Source: Endomicrobiia bacterium
Lineage (GTDB): Bacteria; Elusimicrobiota; Endomicrobiia; DTEH01
Assembly: GCA_025059805.1 (NCBI GenBank)
Contig: JANXDG010000005.1
Location: 1 to 44,787, forward strand
Direction of reading: 5' to 3'
Length of the DNA stretch: 44,787 bases
Shown here: one piece after another, positions 32 to 6,012 of the stretch
How positions within the stretch are numbered: position 1 is the first letter of the stretch
Layout of the letters: each line of letters opens with the position of its first letter
Made by a program: the position numbers and the translations under genes
The notes under the pieces: generated by a model
What the model saw: only the letters and a program-made list of their open reading frames with translations
What the model was told of the DNA's origin: nothing
Database searches by the model: none

Positions 32-60
32 TTGACATAGCAAGGTTGGTAGAATATTGC
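32..60 (+). promoter_or_regulatory. Possible promoter of the hairpin leader
   Basis: A perfect -35 hexamer TTGACA (32-37) is followed after 17 bases by TATTGC (55-60), which matches the -10 consensus at only three of six positions. It lies about 35 bases before the first structured element, so a transcript from here would carry four tandem hairpins before the first coding region. The -35 and spacing are good and the -10 is weak; this is inference. Confidence 0.35.
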
Positions 61-95
61 TTTACAATTACCTGTAGGTATAGATTTTTTATATT

Positions 96-152
96 CCGTG
101 CTGGAGGGGTCTATCTCTACGGGGGTAAGGGATTGGATTTACTTCAGCACGG
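96..152 (+). repeat. Structured hairpin element, copy 1 (TCTACGGGG loop)
   Basis: The arm CCGTGCTG (96-103) is exactly complementary to CAGCACGG (145-152), and the stem continues through G-T, A-T and G-C pairs inward. The interior holds TCTATC, then the shared apical TCTACGGGG at 116-124, then a partly complementary GATTGGA. The outer stem sequence differs from the other copies while the apical sequence is the same, as expected for a folded RNA or single-stranded DNA element. I do not recognise the family. Confidence 0.6.
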
Positions 153-168
153 GAGTTTTGATAACTAT

Positions 169-247
169 GCGGAAGGGGCAGCAGGGGTTCTACTCTCTAC
201 GGGGTAGGAGAGTAAGGTAAGTTATTATCCTTGTTGTTCCCTTCCGC
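169..247 (+). repeat. Structured hairpin element, copy 2 (TCTACGGGG loop)
   Basis: The outer stem pairs 169-177 with 239-247 (9 bp, no mismatch). A second helix pairs 179-186 with 229-236, including two G-T pairs. An inner hairpin pairs TACTCTC (191-197) with GAGAGTA (208-214) around the conserved TACGGGG. Two extra bases precede the shared TCTACGGGG relative to the other copies. A short T run (248-251) follows. The outer arms share GCGGAAGG/CCTTCCGC with copy 4, so the two copies could cross-pair. Confidence 0.65.
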
Positions 248-270
248 TTTTATGTTTGAATAACATAGAT

Positions 271-346
271 GCCAGCAGGTTTCTAAGTAGCACAGGGGTT
301 TACCTCTACGGGGGTATGGTGAACTTCCTGTTGCTACCCTGCTGGC
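271..346 (+). repeat. Structured hairpin element, copy 3 (TCTACGGGG loop)
   Basis: The outer stem pairs GCCAGCAGG (271-279) with CCTGCTGGC (338-346), 9 bp perfect. After an internal bulge, GTAGCA (287-292) pairs with TGCTAC (332-337) and CAGG (293-296) with CCTG (327-330). An apical hairpin pairs 298-304 with 318-324, one pair being T-G, and exposes a 13-base loop starting TCTACGGGG. This is the cleanest copy and serves as the structural model for the family. Confidence 0.7.
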
Positions 347-361
347 AAATGGTTATAAAGT

Positions 362-456
362 TTTTTCTGCGGAAGGATACAGGGCATGGAGGTGCTACCT
401 CTACGGGGATTGAAAAGTCAGGTGGTGCTTTTTCCTGTCCGCCTTCCGCAGAAAAA
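362..456 (+). repeat. Structured hairpin element, copy 4, followed by T8
   Basis: The outer stem is 15 bp without mismatch: 362-376 with 442-456 (TTTTTCTGCGGAAGG against its reverse complement). Inside, ACAGG (379-383) pairs with CCTGT (434-438) and GCTACC (394-399) with GGTGGT (421-426), leaving TCTACGGGG in the apical loop. Eight T residues (457-464) follow directly, so the 3' half also looks like an intrinsic terminator. The start codon of the FN3 gene is about 20 bases further on, so this copy could act as an attenuator as well as a member of the tandem array. Confidence 0.65.
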
Positions 457-481
457 TTTTTTTTGACGGAACAAAAACTTG

Positions 482-1255
482 ATGAATAGATTAAAACAAT
501 ACATAACTTCGGTGATAATACAGGCATTCACTATTGTAAATATTATTGGTTTACCGCCTGTATTTGTTGATGTTGGCAAACCATCGGGTTATGTATTACA
601 CGCTGCGACTGACGCTGGCTATATCCTTGTAAAAATTAAAGGAGAAAAAATACCGCCTGAACGTATCACTAACCTTGTAGCACAGCCAAGATTGGTTACT
701 GGCGTATATCCAGGTGATGAACTTGGCGGTAGAGTAGAACTAAGCTGGAGCGCACCAAAAGATCCAGAAGTGTACGATGTTCATCCTGACACTTATGTGT
801 TTTCGTATATTATAAAGTTTGACACATCAACTCGCGGATATAACCTTGGATATTTAAACCAGTTATGGCAATGGTGGGACAATGCTGAACGTGTAAGAAC
901 AAACCATCTCTGGGTATTACCACAAGAAGCACAGGGTCAAACATTTAAAGAGTATCCGCACGGGTTTGGTATACCAGCACCTGAGGAAAAATTCAGGCTC
1001 AGTTTTGGTATAACAAATAAAATTATAATAACAGGTTTACCAAAGGGTGAAAAAATTTATATAGGCGTATCTTCTCGCGACAGATTTTATAATCAATCCA
1101 CATCTACGGTTGTTTCAGAAGTTTACGTACCCGCGAGTGTTATCCCACCGTGTAAAGTTGCTGACCTGGACGATGTTGCTTCTGGCAATGTTGTTTCTCC
1201 TGGTGAAGGCTGGGTAAGACTTAGTTGGACATCGCCTGCAAACGATAGATACTAA
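482..1255 (+). CDS. Multi-FN3 exported surface protein, N-terminal piece before in-frame TAA
   Basis: This is the first 257 codons of a large exported protein. Residues 1 to about 35 form a signal peptide (basic start MNRLKQ, then a hydrophobic run). Fibronectin type III-like domains follow: GRVELSWSAPKDPE and GWVRLSWTSPAND are strand B/C signatures, and NQSTSTVVSEVYVP is the end of the first domain. A TTG one codon earlier (479) is an alternative start; neither has a clear Shine-Dalgarno site. The frame ends at TAA 1253-1255 in mid-domain. The same frame then stays open from 1256 to 4306 and continues the domain, so this and the next entry are one gene of about 1,275 codons broken by a single stop. 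The likely role is an adhesin or cell-surface scaffold, which is inference. Confidence 0.75.
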   Translation: MNRLKQYITSVIIQAFTIVNIIGLPPVFVDVGKPSGYVLHAATDAGYILVKIKGEKIPPERITNLVAQPRLVTGVYPGDELGGRVELSWSAPKDPEVYDVHPDTYVFSYIIKFDTSTRGYNLGYLNQLWQWWDNAERVRTNHLWVLPQEAQGQTFKEYPHGFGIPAPEEKFRLSFGITNKIIITGLPKGEKIYIGVSSRDRFYNQSTSTVVSEVYVPASVIPPCKVADLDDVASGNVVSPGEGWVRLSWTSPANDRY

Positions 1256-1420
1256 GTTGACGCGTCAACTGGCGAGTATAATTTACATTATGCAAGATAC
1301 TGTATTGCTTATGCGACAACACCACCACCTATAGAATTTTCGCCACAGGAGATCAGTACAAAATGGCCTCAGGCACAGACAATTTATGTTGATACTGACA
1401 CTTTTAAATATCAACCTCAA

Positions 1421-4306
1421 GTGTTCACAATAACCGGTCTTACATTAATGGAGGGAACTACAGCAATAGGTCATTACTTCCTTGTATGGACTTCAGATGA
1501 ATGGTTCGGTAAGAACAACTGGTCAAGACGGTCAAACCTTGCAGTATGGGGACTTGTTGCACCTGACTATGTCACTGATGTTGTAATTACATCTTCTGCG
1601 TCAGTAAGTTTAAGTACCGGTTCATATAGTATAATTTCATGGCGGAACCCGGCCGATACAGATATTCCAATTGAAGGTGTCAAAATCTACTGGTCAACAA
1701 ACGGCTACACTACAAATGAAAATTATTTTGTCAAGGAGACAACCTCACATGGCGAGGTTGTAAGTGTTAATCATGTGCAATTAATACCGCGACACTGGTA
1801 CTACTATGTTTTAATGTCATATAATGCAGCAGGGTCAAGACCATGGTACGGTGCAAATGTTACAGGGAAGGTATATCTCAGTGATGATTTTATCCCACCG
1901 GATCCTGTTAATAACCTTACAGGTTTGTCAGGTGCCTCAGAACAAGATGGTGTATATATTTCACTAAACTGGACACTGCCCGATGCTAATCTGTACCAGA
2001 ACAAAGATTATTATATTGATGGTAGAATAGAAGTTTTATATTCAACAACTTCATTCTCTGGACCATACATAAGCAGTGTCACAATTCCACGAACAAGTAC
2101 AAATGCGCAACTGGTACAACTTTTGTCTTACACTACATATTATATTTCTGTAATCACTGTCGATGGCGGAGGGAATAAGTCCACATCTACGATACAGATC
2201 TATACACCGCTTGATCCGTACGCCCCTGGAGATCCCGTATTGGAGTACCCAAAATATGCAGTGTTTGCTTCTTCGGATGAAAACATAGGTTCGTATGTAA
2301 AATTCTGGATCAAGAATCCGTCAGAACCAGATCTTGACCACGTAAGGATATACTTTAGTACTGTAGCTGGTCAGTATTACAGGTATGTAATTACAAATAA
2401 TACATTGCCAAATCAGAGTTACACATTTGACCTTGTCCAACTTTATCCTAGGACAACTTATTACTTCAGATTAGTTGCAGTAGATAAAACAAACAAATTT
2501 TCCTCTGGACTTGTAGTTGATGGAGTTTATATTGACAAGGATGTTCTTTCACCTGAGCTACCATTATCGTCTTCAATTAGTTTAACCCCTGATGCAAAAC
2601 CTGAATCAAAACCTGACGGTTCATATGTTAAAATTAACTTTATACCACCTGATGTTAATAAATATAGGAATTTTGATCTTATAGGATATGAGATTTATGC
2701 AAGTTCGTCAAATACAGTTCCTTATAACGATAATGCTGCTATTAAAATTGTATCTAACAATCGTGAAATTTCTTATTACGAACTGCTGAATTTACAACAG
2801 CATACAACATATTATGTAACATTACACTCGTTTGACCCTGCAGGAAATAAGTCAACATCTACTGTTTACACAGTATTTACTTATAAAGATCTTAATCCTC
2901 CAATACCTGCTAATGTGAACTTGTCAACAATTAGTGTTTCTTTGGACCCGTCCGAAGGTATAAAAGCAAAACTTAAGATTAAATTTAGTGCTGACAAAGA
3001 CCTTAGCTATGCTATTATTGAATTTTCAAAAGATGAGAATTTTGCAGATGTACTTGTTTCAAGTACGATTGTTAAGTTATATCCGAGCATGGTCAAAGAT
3101 GATTGGTTTGCAGAACATCTTGACTGTGAAAAATATTATGTGAGAATCAAAATTTATGACTGGTCAGGTAATGTTAGTATTTCAACTACTTCGTTTAATA
3201 TAACGATACCTAAAGATGAAACCATACCACTTTCAGCGGTTGGTTTCAGGTTTAAGAAAAACGGCGAGAAACTGGAATTTCAATGGAATAATGTAAAACA
3301 TCAATATAATAAGACATCTTCTAAGATAGAAAAATTTGCTGGTGTAAACAATACTGGTGCTGATAATCCTACAACGTTTGAGCTGTACAAATATAAGGTT
3401 TTCTATAAACAAGATATATTTAACGATGATGAACAATGGCAAGAAGTTATTTCTGTAATTTCAAAATATAATAAATGTGAGATACCATTCAGAAAAGGTT
3501 ACTACAAAGTTGTAAGTTATGATATATGTGGTAATAGTGATGAATCAATAATAGTTGATGACGAAAGCAATTATTATCTAATCAAAAATGGTGTATATAC
3601 AAAATTCGCATCTGCAAATATAGAAGATATTATACCTTCCTACTATTCCGTAGAGGACTATCCAGATGAAGAAAAAGGTATGATTTTACGAGTATATACA
3701 GTCAAAAGAGGAAACCTTGATGATAAAGAAAACAGGATTATTTATTCTGATACTTATAAGTTTAAGAATGACAATTATGTTGGTGTTAGATATACAATTA
3801 TGAATGGTAAAATTAAATTCGCAAGTATAAATAAATCTCTTGAAATTAACCCTGAGCTGATTGAGACACAGGTTGCGTTCTATGTATTTGACGGTAAAGA
3901 TTACATTCGTGCGACAACTTATGTTGATAAAGATAAAAAAGTTGTCTATTTCAAGACTAAGTTTTTAACAAAAGTACAACTGCGTCGTGTCAATACATCG
4001 GGCGAGTTTAAGTTTGCTGAGGTAAAGCCAAGAGTTATAACTCCTGACAGTTCACCTGGTGAGAACGATATTGTGTTCTTTATATTTAATAATCCAAAGT
4101 CTTCAGAAGTGAAGATAAGAATATATGATATAAATTCAATCCTTGTTTGGGAATTGATAACAAGGGATGATTCATCTACACCTGGTAGTTATATTGGTTG
4201 GGACGGAAAAGATTTTGACGGTAAATATGTTTTACCAGGTGTATATGTTTACCAGATAGAAGCCGAAGGTAAAAAATACAAAGGTACCATAGTAATTGCA
4301 AGATAG
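1421..4306 (+). CDS. Multi-FN3 surface protein, C-terminal piece with FlgD-like C-terminal domain
   Basis: This continues the upstream gene in the same frame; the frame is open from 1256, and the GTG at 1421 is only the first possible internal start, with no ribosome-binding site. It contains about six further FN3-like domains whose ends carry a repeated motif of the form GNKSTSTV before a P-rich linker. A less repetitive region follows at residues about 590-870. The last ~90 residues, starting near VITPDSSPGEN and including KIRIYDINS, GWDGKDFDGKYVLPGVYVYQIEA, resemble the FlgD Ig-like fold used as a C-terminal domain in many exported proteins of PorV-containing bacteria. It has no signal peptide of its own, so without readthrough or repair of the stop it would not be exported. 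It may be a pseudogene, a recoding case or a sequencing error. Confidence 0.7.
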   Translation: MFTITGLTLMEGTTAIGHYFLVWTSDEWFGKNNWSRRSNLAVWGLVAPDYVTDVVITSSASVSLSTGSYSIISWRNPADTDIPIEGVKIYWSTNGYTTNENYFVKETTSHGEVVSVNHVQLIPRHWYYYVLMSYNAAGSRPWYGANVTGKVYLSDDFIPPDPVNNLTGLSGASEQDGVYISLNWTLPDANLYQNKDYYIDGRIEVLYSTTSFSGPYISSVTIPRTSTNAQLVQLLSYTTYYISVITVDGGGNKSTSTIQIYTPLDPYAPGDPVLEYPKYAVFASSDENIGSYVKFWIKNPSEPDLDHVRIYFSTVAGQYYRYVITNNTLPNQSYTFDLVQLYPRTTYYFRLVAVDKTNKFSSGLVVDGVYIDKDVLSPELPLSSSISLTPDAKPESKPDGSYVKINFIPPDVNKYRNFDLIGYEIYASSSNTVPYNDNAAIKIVSNNREISYYELLNLQQHTTYYVTLHSFDPAGNKSTSTVYTVFTYKDLNPPIPANVNLSTISVSLDPSEGIKAKLKIKFSADKDLSYAIIEFSKDENFADVLVSSTIVKLYPSMVKDDWFAEHLDCEKYYVRIKIYDWSGNVSISTTSFNITIPKDETIPLSAVGFRFKKNGEKLEFQWNNVKHQYNKTSSKIEKFAGVNNTGADNPTTFELYKYKVFYKQDIFNDDEQWQEVISVISKYNKCEIPFRKGYYKVVSYDICGNSDESIIVDDESNYYLIKNGVYTKFASANIEDIIPSYYSVEDYPDEEKGMILRVYTVKRGNLDDKENRIIYSDTYKFKNDNYVGVRYTIMNGKIKFASINKSLEINPELIETQVAFYVFDGKDYIRATTYVDKDKKVVYFKTKFLTKVQLRRVNTSGEFKFAEVKPRVITPDSSPGENDIVFFIFNNPKSSEVKIRIYDINSILVWELITRDDSSTPGSYIGWDGKDFDGKYVLPGVYVYQIEAEGKKYKGTIVIAR

Positions 4307-4378
4307 AAATATGACAGATTTTACTAACTATAGTAGGAATTTGTTTTCTTAAAGGTTGCACAGATTTTTGTTATTTTA

Positions 4379-4466
4379 GCGGGAGGTGCGGCCGTGGTAA
4401 AAGTTAGGGGTTTACCTCTACGGGGGATGAGGGAAAAACCTTGTAGATTTTTTGCCGCACTCCCGC
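4379..4466 (+). repeat. Structured hairpin element, copy 5 (TCTACGGGG loop)
   Basis: GCGGGA (4379-4384) pairs with TCCCGC (4461-4466) and, after one bulged G, GTGCGGC (4386-4392) pairs with GCCGCAC (4454-4460): 13 bp with a single bulge. Inside, GGTTT (4409-4413) pairs with AAACC (4436-4440) and the apical part again contains TCTACGGGG preceded by TTACC. It lies between the FN3 gene and the PorV-like gene, ending 24 bases before an AGGAGGG ribosome-binding site. Its stem sequence is unrelated to those of the other four copies. Confidence 0.65.
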
Positions 4467-4506
4467 TTGGACAGAAAAATTTTGTAAACTAGGAGGGTAC
4501 AAGATT

Positions 4507-6012
4507 ATGAAAAATTTGATAAAATCTACATCTACAATTTGCAAAATTATGATGTTGTTACTAATAAAATCACAAATGGAAGCTACGGTTTCCGGCTTGC
4601 CAGTAGGTGCCAAATATATTGCCTTAGGAGGACAAGTTTCTGTTACTGAAGATGTATATTCAGTATATTATAATCCAGCATGTGTTGATTACATCGAACA
4701 ACAGCAGGTCGCTGCTGAATACACTATGATGTTTTTAGGTTTATCAGATGGTATCTCACGCGGGTTCTTTGGGTATGGGTTGCCAACAAAGAAATACGGT
4801 AGTTTTGGTCTTTACTGGAATATATTACAGGGTGGTTCACTATACAGTGAAAATGTTTTTGCATTTGTATACTCAAAAAAGCGTATTTTGTCATATTTGC
4901 CATCACTTTCGTTAGGGATAAGACCGAAAGTATATGTTATTACATACGGCAGGGTGGAAGTTTATGACAATGATGGTATGTACGTATCTGACAATGACAC
5001 TGCATTTGCGAAAAATGGAAATTCAAAATCTGTTATGAGCTTAGATATAGGTTTTAGTTATCAACTTGCACAAAATTATATTTTGGGATTACAAATTAAT
5101 GATGTTACTAAACCTAACATTTCTTTGTTTAACAAACAGGATGTAGTGGTACCTATGAAAATTTTAGTTGGTTTGGCAAATGTTAACAAAATCTATGGTT
5201 TAAACTTGGATGTTGGATTTAAAAATATAGATATGATAATATCAGCTGGAGCACAGATCAAACTGTTAAACGAAAAACTTAGACTATACGGTTCTGTAAA
5301 GTACACTTCTAGAAATTATAAGACAAAATCAGTATCACTCGTTGAACCTTCAGTTGGTGCTGAGTTCGTATTTGACGGAGTAAATGTTGCTTACGCGTTT
5401 AATTATCCAATCTCAGGTATAGATGTTTTTGGCAATCATACAGTATCTATATCTTATAGGTTTGGACCTGTTGTAAAACTACCTGAAGATACTTCTGCAT
5501 TATATGCTAAAATTGACAATCTTGAACAACAACTTAAACAGAAAGATGCTGAAATTGAGGAACTAAAGAGAAAACTTGATGAACTGTTGAAGAAACCTCT
5601 ACCTAAGGAAGTTAAACCTGAAGTGAAACCGTCAGTTCAACCCCCGGCAGAAAAACCGCAAGAGAAACAATTGACACCTAAAGAACGATACGAATCATTA
5701 TGGAAACGTTATACAGAAATGAAAGATCAAATGTCTTTTGTTGATAGAATTAAGACAGTTGAGACTATTATAAAACAATTCAAAGGACAAACAGATATTA
5801 CTGCTGCACAGAAAGAGTTAAACGAACTAACAAAACAGAAAGAAGCGATGAATAAAGAATTGCAGACAAGCAAAAATTACTACTTAAAGCTTAAGTCTGC
5901 AAATGTACCAAAGTCGGAATTGAGGACCGTGCTTGAACGAATCAAGAAAAAATATGAAGGTTACGGTCTAGATGTCAATTGGATAGATGAAGAACTGAAA
6001 CAGTTAGAGTGA
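4507..6012 (+). CDS. PorV/PorQ-family outer-membrane protein with C-terminal coiled coil
   Basis: This is a 501-residue predicted outer-membrane beta-barrel of the PorV/PorQ (UPF0164-like) family. After a hydrophobic N-terminus, residues about 30-65 read LPVGAKYIALGGQVSV and VYSVYYNPACVDY, matching the family's characteristic 'GARALGMGGA...D...YYNPAGL' opening. Alternating strands continue to about residue 330 (SISYRFGPVV). A coiled coil follows (about 340-370, EQQLKQKDAEIEELKRKL), then a P/K/E-rich linker, then a charged helical tail to the end. The barrel probably sits in the outer membrane with the tail in the periplasm. AGGAGGG at 4491-4497 supports the ATG. In Bacteroidota PorV shuttles type IX substrates; here it neighbours proteins with FlgD-like C-termini, but no type IX core component is visible, so a secretion role is inference. 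Confidence 0.7.
   Translation: MKNLIKSTSTICKIMMLLLIKSQMEATVSGLPVGAKYIALGGQVSVTEDVYSVYYNPACVDYIEQQQVAAEYTMMFLGLSDGISRGFFGYGLPTKKYGSFGLYWNILQGGSLYSENVFAFVYSKKRILSYLPSLSLGIRPKVYVITYGRVEVYDNDGMYVSDNDTAFAKNGNSKSVMSLDIGFSYQLAQNYILGLQINDVTKPNISLFNKQDVVVPMKILVGLANVNKIYGLNLDVGFKNIDMIISAGAQIKLLNEKLRLYGSVKYTSRNYKTKSVSLVEPSVGAEFVFDGVNVAYAFNYPISGIDVFGNHTVSISYRFGPVVKLPEDTSALYAKIDNLEQQLKQKDAEIEELKRKLDELLKKPLPKEVKPEVKPSVQPPAEKPQEKQLTPKERYESLWKRYTEMKDQMSFVDRIKTVETIIKQFKGQTDITAAQKELNELTKQKEAMNKELQTSKNYYLKLKSANVPKSELRTVLERIKKKYEGYGLDVNWIDEELKQLE

Follow-up and report, generated by a model that had tools for sequence, protein, structure and literature searches.

The window, that is the whole analysed stretch of 44,787 nucleotides (C81:1-44787) from an uncultured member of the Elusimicrobiota, begins with an array of four hairpins which adjoins the contig start. 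The array is followed by genes for a secreted FN3-domain protein and a PorV/PorP-like outer-membrane protein, and a fifth hairpin lies between these two genes. The hairpins will be called A elements. Their E values were obtained with model R2.

94..154, + strand: A element 1, hairpin with a 13 bp outer stem (E 1.8e-8)
169..247, + strand: A element 2, hairpin with the stem GCGGAAGGGGCAGC / GTTGTTCCCTTCCGC (E 0.0015; outside the R1 training set)
270..347, + strand: A element 3, hairpin in hairpin (E 2.8e-8)
362..456, + strand: A element 4, hairpin with a 15-bp outer stem, then TTTTTTTT (E 0.068; outside the training set)
482..4306, + strand: secreted FN3-domain protein gene, 3' of the array, with a T9SS/CHU_C-like C-terminal tail
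4378..4467, + strand: A element 5, between the FN3-protein and PorV/PorP-like genes (E 0.012; outside the training set)
4507..6012, + strand: PorV/PorP-like outer-membrane protein gene (PF11751, 1.2e-8; NF033709, 1.8e-8, which is under the NCBIfam cut-off)

The FN3-protein gene contains an in-frame TAA at positions 1253-1255 (+ strand). Since the frame is open on both sides, this is either a nonsense change or a sequence error.

The word TCTACGGGG is found five times within the window, at 116, 196, 305, 400 and 4417, exclusively on the + strand, while 0.04 occurrences are expected. A previous sequence-only reading had placed five hairpins here. All five are indeed present and fold far better than shuffled sequences, with z-scores of -7.1, -5.5, -6.8, -5.2 and -3.5 for elements 1 to 5; no shuffle was equally stable. 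The same reading had proposed to look for further copies elsewhere in this genome, and there are none: the sole additional match to TCTACGGGG (C41:2621) is located within the hisG coding sequence and was rejected as chance. Thus, all five real copies belong to one locus. The array of the window may be truncated at the contig edge. Arrays are often found at contig ends (position 1 of the window, L041 position 1, L082 position 6489, the end of L160, the start of L174). Apparently, assemblers break there, and copy numbers may be underestimated.

Tandem arrays were also detected in relatives when 96 genomes of the class were scanned for the pattern. Model R2, trained on the window's class, revealed 27 previously unseen copies in family f12, which belongs to a second class. 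With the covariance model R3 element A was found in 15 of 341 Elusimicrobiota genomes representing six families and two classes, so that the search of relatives suggested at the outset was successful. No R3 match was obtained in G006-G009, the nearest relatives of the window's genome. A 13-letter apex word is present in seven of the eight f12 genomes, with one copy in reverse orientation (element B, described below) and 4-9 copies in A orientation; a reversed control pattern gave zero matches in the f12 genomes. With few exceptions, each genome has its A copies at a single locus. Among the exceptions, G103 (f12) carries two additional isolated copies of the apex word. A lone A-like core with an unclear outer stem lies off-locus at about 1464-1540 of L175 (G103:C3:62659) and is either a decayed or a trans copy. 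No arrays were found near other PorV genes in G089, G090, G092 and G093. The searches covered Elusimicrobiota genomes, and viral contigs were screened for exact matches to the pattern. Two viral-contig copies (L172 2526-2544 and L173 3175-3193) lie inside reading frames (V-Y-L-Y-G), have no hairpin and were treated as chance.

The usual order is a gene for a small secreted protein, then the array, a gene for an FN3 protein whose tail is T9SS-like, in many cases one or two further A elements, and a gene for a PorV/PorP-like protein. Relatives also carry A elements at the position of element 5. Two more genes, one of them chaperone-like and the other a second secreted-protein gene, separate the array from the FN3 gene in G094 and G088. 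In G111 a second small secreted-protein gene, 84% identical, is situated between the FN3 and PorV-like genes (L081 8978-9892); it is preceded by two A copies and has no B of its own. For the small secreted protein AlphaFold gave a pLDDT of 54, and searches of the PDB and NCBIfam yielded nothing useful.

In order to compare the copies, anchored sequences and then an iterated covariance model were used, since plain MAFFT misplaced the 3' arms of A. The comparison revealed a constant 5' half, about CAGRRGTYTRCCTYTACGGGG; variation is found in the 3' half and in the outer stem, which nevertheless stay complementary. The outer helix is 98.8% paired when 54 distinct copies are compared, and eight of eight modelled pairs are altered on both sides. 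A covariation score of 0.474 was obtained, compared to 0.189 for shuffled and at most 0.151 for slid alignments; this alignment is model-fitted and includes three B copies, and the controls leave shared ancestry in, but the effect is very large. The selected structure with covarying stems proposed by the sequence-only reading is thus strongly supported. That reading had placed the conserved part near the apex. In fact, the relatives keep the whole 5' half, apex included. The apex itself is identical in the five copies of the window as claimed, but across lineages it reads TNCGGGG, where N is A, G or U.

The mismatches left in the arms after an alignment that allowed only Watson-Crick pairs comprise 106 G.T and 17 A.C, whereas the composition predicts a ratio of 1.35:1. 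G.T equals or exceeds A.C in 15 of 15 genomes; the corresponding p-value of 1e-11 is too small because the copies are related, but the direction is uniform. Since wobble pairs are tolerated on a single strand, A is judged to be selected as a molecule of the gene-sense strand, namely as RNA or, less likely, as single-stranded DNA. RNAfold mostly predicts a GGGG loop over a UAC/GUA or UUC/GAA stem at the apex, and pair 48-95 changes from AU to UA between lineages. A UNCG tetraloop as the sole apex fold was rejected on these two grounds; either apex fold may apply. Peptide-coding repeats were considered as well, because the core can be read as V-Y-L-Y-G. They were rejected owing to stops, frame shifts and 1-nt indels between the copies of an array.

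A second element, B, is found in the relatives as a single reverse copy behind the small secreted-protein gene and upstream of the array, in all 12 genomes with an assembled junction. It keeps the complement of the A 5' half only and lacks the A 3' half. In these 12 genomes each locus contains one B and about 3-9 A. In f12, B forms the end of a conserved region that measures about 250-700 nt and contains the covarying helices P1, P2 and P3. A hand alignment of P1, P2 and both P3 parts has 290 cells, of which 276 hold standard pairs; G.U was counted 39 times and A.C once. This pairing pattern indicates that B, too, is a gene-sense RNA, which is antisense to A. P3 with a UA/CU-type internal loop also occurs in G002, G004, G005 and G094. 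Unrelated palindromic repeats are inserted at hairpin tips of B-RNA or array copies (the P3 region of L160 in G107, L040 6847-6920 in G094, L114 10400-10490 in G088); the outer stems are intact.

In 12 of 12 cases B is followed, after about 30-180 nt, by a terminator-like hairpin and its T-run, and an automatic scan of L081 agrees. Promoters between this B terminator and the array are plausible. Between the stop codon of the secreted-protein gene and the B-RNA, five of seven f12 genomes (G096, G103, G105, G107, G111) carry a boxA-like word, GTTCTTTGA(A/C)A; behind this gene it is absent in G099 and G113. In the f12 genomes whose 16S was found (G099, G105, G107), GTTCTTTGAAA lies 100-175 nt before 16S. 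The boxA word of the f12 B-RNA is therefore the same word as in the rrn leader of the host. Genome-wide it is not enriched over the control, and none was seen in members of Endomicrobia. Element B is absent from the assembly of the window's own genome. Since the contig is cut off at window position 1, the partner was out of sight of the sequence-only reading. It is predicted that a B element with CCCCGTAGA lies immediately 5' of this position, following a gene for a small secreted protein.

One segment of B-RNA is the reverse complement of the conserved A 5' half, apex included. In the window's class the variable base N of C(UNCG)G is A, with G088 (G) as the exception; in f12 it is U. N is uniform within each genome (80 of 80 A copies), and B carries its complement; these independent changes of N amount to two or three events. 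The mean duplex energy of own pairs is -45 to -59 kcal/mol compared to -14 to -26 kcal/mol for shuffled A. With A hairpins of the other class about -24 to -42 kcal/mol was calculated, the exception being G095, whose single copy is rich in GC and binds well to any B. When the unfolding of both partners is taken into account, the modelled net binding of own pairs is -9.7 to -22.8 kcal/mol, with G088 as the weakest (-9.7). It is mostly about -1 kcal/mol with the other class (-6.2 for G002) and 0 for shuffled B. Thus, anti-A and A change together between lineages, and by computation they pair strongly and in a lineage-specific manner. The complementarity could also result from homology alone, if B arose long ago as an inverted copy of A. 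Homology does not explain why B is without the hairpin half everywhere, why it is embedded in a structured sense-strand RNA and why exactly one copy is present.

At the level of sequence, these comparisons establish structure, strand, locus order and lineage-specific complementarity of two conserved RNAs. They suggest an RNA-to-RNA switch that controls a surface apparatus. With chances that we consider evenly balanced, the repeat/anti-repeat RNA pair regulates the Por-like surface locus by base pairing. Among the natures guessed by the sequence-only reading a tandem regulatory RNA fits best, and a protein-binding leader remains a live rival. According to the latter, an RNA-binding protein reads the conserved 5' half with the C(UNCG)G or GGGG apex, the tandem copies serve as operator or sponge, and B acts as a decoy or is a relic. 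Such a protein would be consistent with the constant core shared by the tandem hairpins of a leader, and with a 5' half whose primary sequence is kept though the pairing register of the apex shifts. Csr/Rsm sponges such as CsrB and RsmZ likewise consist of several successive hairpins with a common apical motif. They differ from A, which has a complementary partner RNA and whose array stands before protein genes. The GGA-in-loop motif of CsrA is missing as well: the A apex is TNCGGGG, and GGGGA is present in part of the copies only. In addition, the conserved stretch exceeds the length of a typical loop motif, A and B show concerted changes of N, and B contains the stretch in antisense form, in which it could not be recognised by a protein that reads A as RNA. 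We therefore regard a protein reader as unlikely.

Another explanation dispenses with a specific partner altogether: the hairpins would be stacked intrinsic terminators, or would stabilise the RNA, and would thereby set relative expression within the operon. The hairpins are intergenic and very stable, and a T-rich stretch follows 35 of 77 A copies, including all four in G094. But in 28 of the 77 copies as many T stand before the stem, and T-runs are absent in G002 and G003. Being frequent in some genomes and absent in others, the T-runs indicate that the A hairpins are not primarily terminators. Moreover, the conserved 24-nt 5' half and B would be left without a reason, which makes this explanation distinctly unlikely.

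A DNA-level element (attC-like, REP/MITE, IS200/IS605 ends or an invertible segment between B and A) could account for the inverted orientation of B relative to A, for tandem duplication with varying copy number and for the second secreted-protein gene copy behind A copies in G111, but it is highly improbable in view of the strong G.T over A.C strand bias, the near-confinement of the copies to one locus, the coding, hairpin-free appearance of the two exact viral matches and a B that lacks the 3' half and has an extra hairpin in f12, whereas inversion keeps near-perfect repeats. An invertible segment flanked by B and A was rejected since the two repeats are too unlike. Integron attC sites resemble A in being tandem hairpins of variable sequence and conserved structure. 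They differ in that the conserved letters of A are located at the apex and in the 5' half, not in outer core sites, and in the RNA strand bias. Neither an integrase or transposase in the neighbouring ORFs nor dispersed copies were recognised. For the same reasons the single-stranded-DNA mobile element of the sequence-only reading is not supported.

Comparison with Rfam 15 at the gathering cut-off gave only tmRNA and tRNA in the window. At a permissive threshold nothing plausible was found on the arrays of window positions 60-480 and seven related loci other than those of f12. With respect to Rfam, the earlier impression that the hairpins match no familiar consensus is thus strongly supported. 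Of the refuting conditions named by the sequence-only reading, just the lack of further copies in this genome applies; the copies in relatives, the covariation and the Rfam comparison spoke for it. The open-access literature yielded no description of the element. To our knowledge, there is no precedent outside CRISPR/tracrRNA for n hairpin targets with one anti-target RNA. Like the A/B locus, CRISPR/tracrRNA combines a repeat array with one adjacent structured RNA that has an anti-repeat and a terminator. BoxA occurs upstream of CRISPR arrays (PMC7862264). In contrast to CRISPR, each A repeat is a hairpin whose stem covaries individually, and the array is situated in leaders of surface-protein genes. 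The repeats differ in both arms and are irregularly spaced, so identical repeats with unique spacers of constant length are not present. Inspection of the ORFs around seven arrays, with Pfam/NCBIfam searches of selected proteins, recognised no Cas-like proteins. The rRNA leader with boxA and leader-trailer pairing is comparable as far as the f12 boxA precedes a long untranslated structured RNA that can pair with sequence downstream. However, the A/B locus is without rRNA, and its pairing partners are repeated.

OppZ and CarZ of Vibrio cholerae are autoregulatory sRNAs derived from the 3' UTRs of operons (Hoyos et al. 2020, PMC7398697). They set a precedent for the working principle, an antisense RNA encoded behind a gene that acts upon the locus it comes from. 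The A/B locus shares with them, at the level of sequence, an RNA that follows a gene, ends at a terminator and is complementary to RNA of that locus. B lies behind a coding sequence and is followed by an intrinsic terminator at 12 of 12 junctions, and its complementarity to the own transcript exceeds chance as for 3' UTR-derived antisense sRNAs. In contrast to OppZ and CarZ, 3-9 dedicated tandem hairpin targets are present, with about 20-40 nt of predicted pairing that co-varies between lineages, and B-RNA precedes its locus rather than ending it. As neither Rfam families nor the hallmarks of CRISPR, Csr motifs or mobile elements were found, we regard the A/B anatomy as categorically new. The two RNAs appear to be undescribed families whose evolution resembles that of a lock and its key, in a phylum that is for the most part uncultured.

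For the RNA pair we propose the following mechanism. The A hairpins would be RNA target sites in the leader and intergenic regions of the Por-like surface-protein locus. B-RNA would either be transcribed together with the 3' UTR of the small secreted-protein mRNA or be cut out of it by processing, and the intrinsic terminator would close it. In one family the boxA-like antitermination word before B-RNA may let the polymerase cross the long untranslated region. B-RNA would then invade the A hairpins of the downstream FN3 and PorV RNA, either in trans or in cis within read-through transcripts. FN3 and PorV expression would thereby be tied to the amount of the upstream small secreted-protein mRNA by repression, release or stabilisation, and multiple A copies could provide avidity, a dose threshold or a sponge. 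A wider proposal, which is possible but rather doubtful, is a repeat/anti-repeat RNA system outside CRISPR, in which one RNA, partly preceded by boxA, pairs with many tandem hairpins and the copy number sets the dose response or the pairing physically ties several mRNAs of the surface machine together. If the pairing is functional, it would constitute an antisense regulator whose target copy number can be changed by duplication, and hence a simple evolvable dial for surface-protein stoichiometry. The lineage-specific N offers a ready-made compensatory-mutation test.

G003 and G005 possess extra single A copies in another operon, before a coiled-coil gene and behind a FliG-domain gene. These single copies would suit a trans-acting partner. 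A c-di-GMP-I-GGC riboswitch (71 bits) was detected at L044 4748-4830 (- strand), before the PorV-like/FliG-domain operon of G003 that contains the extra A copy.
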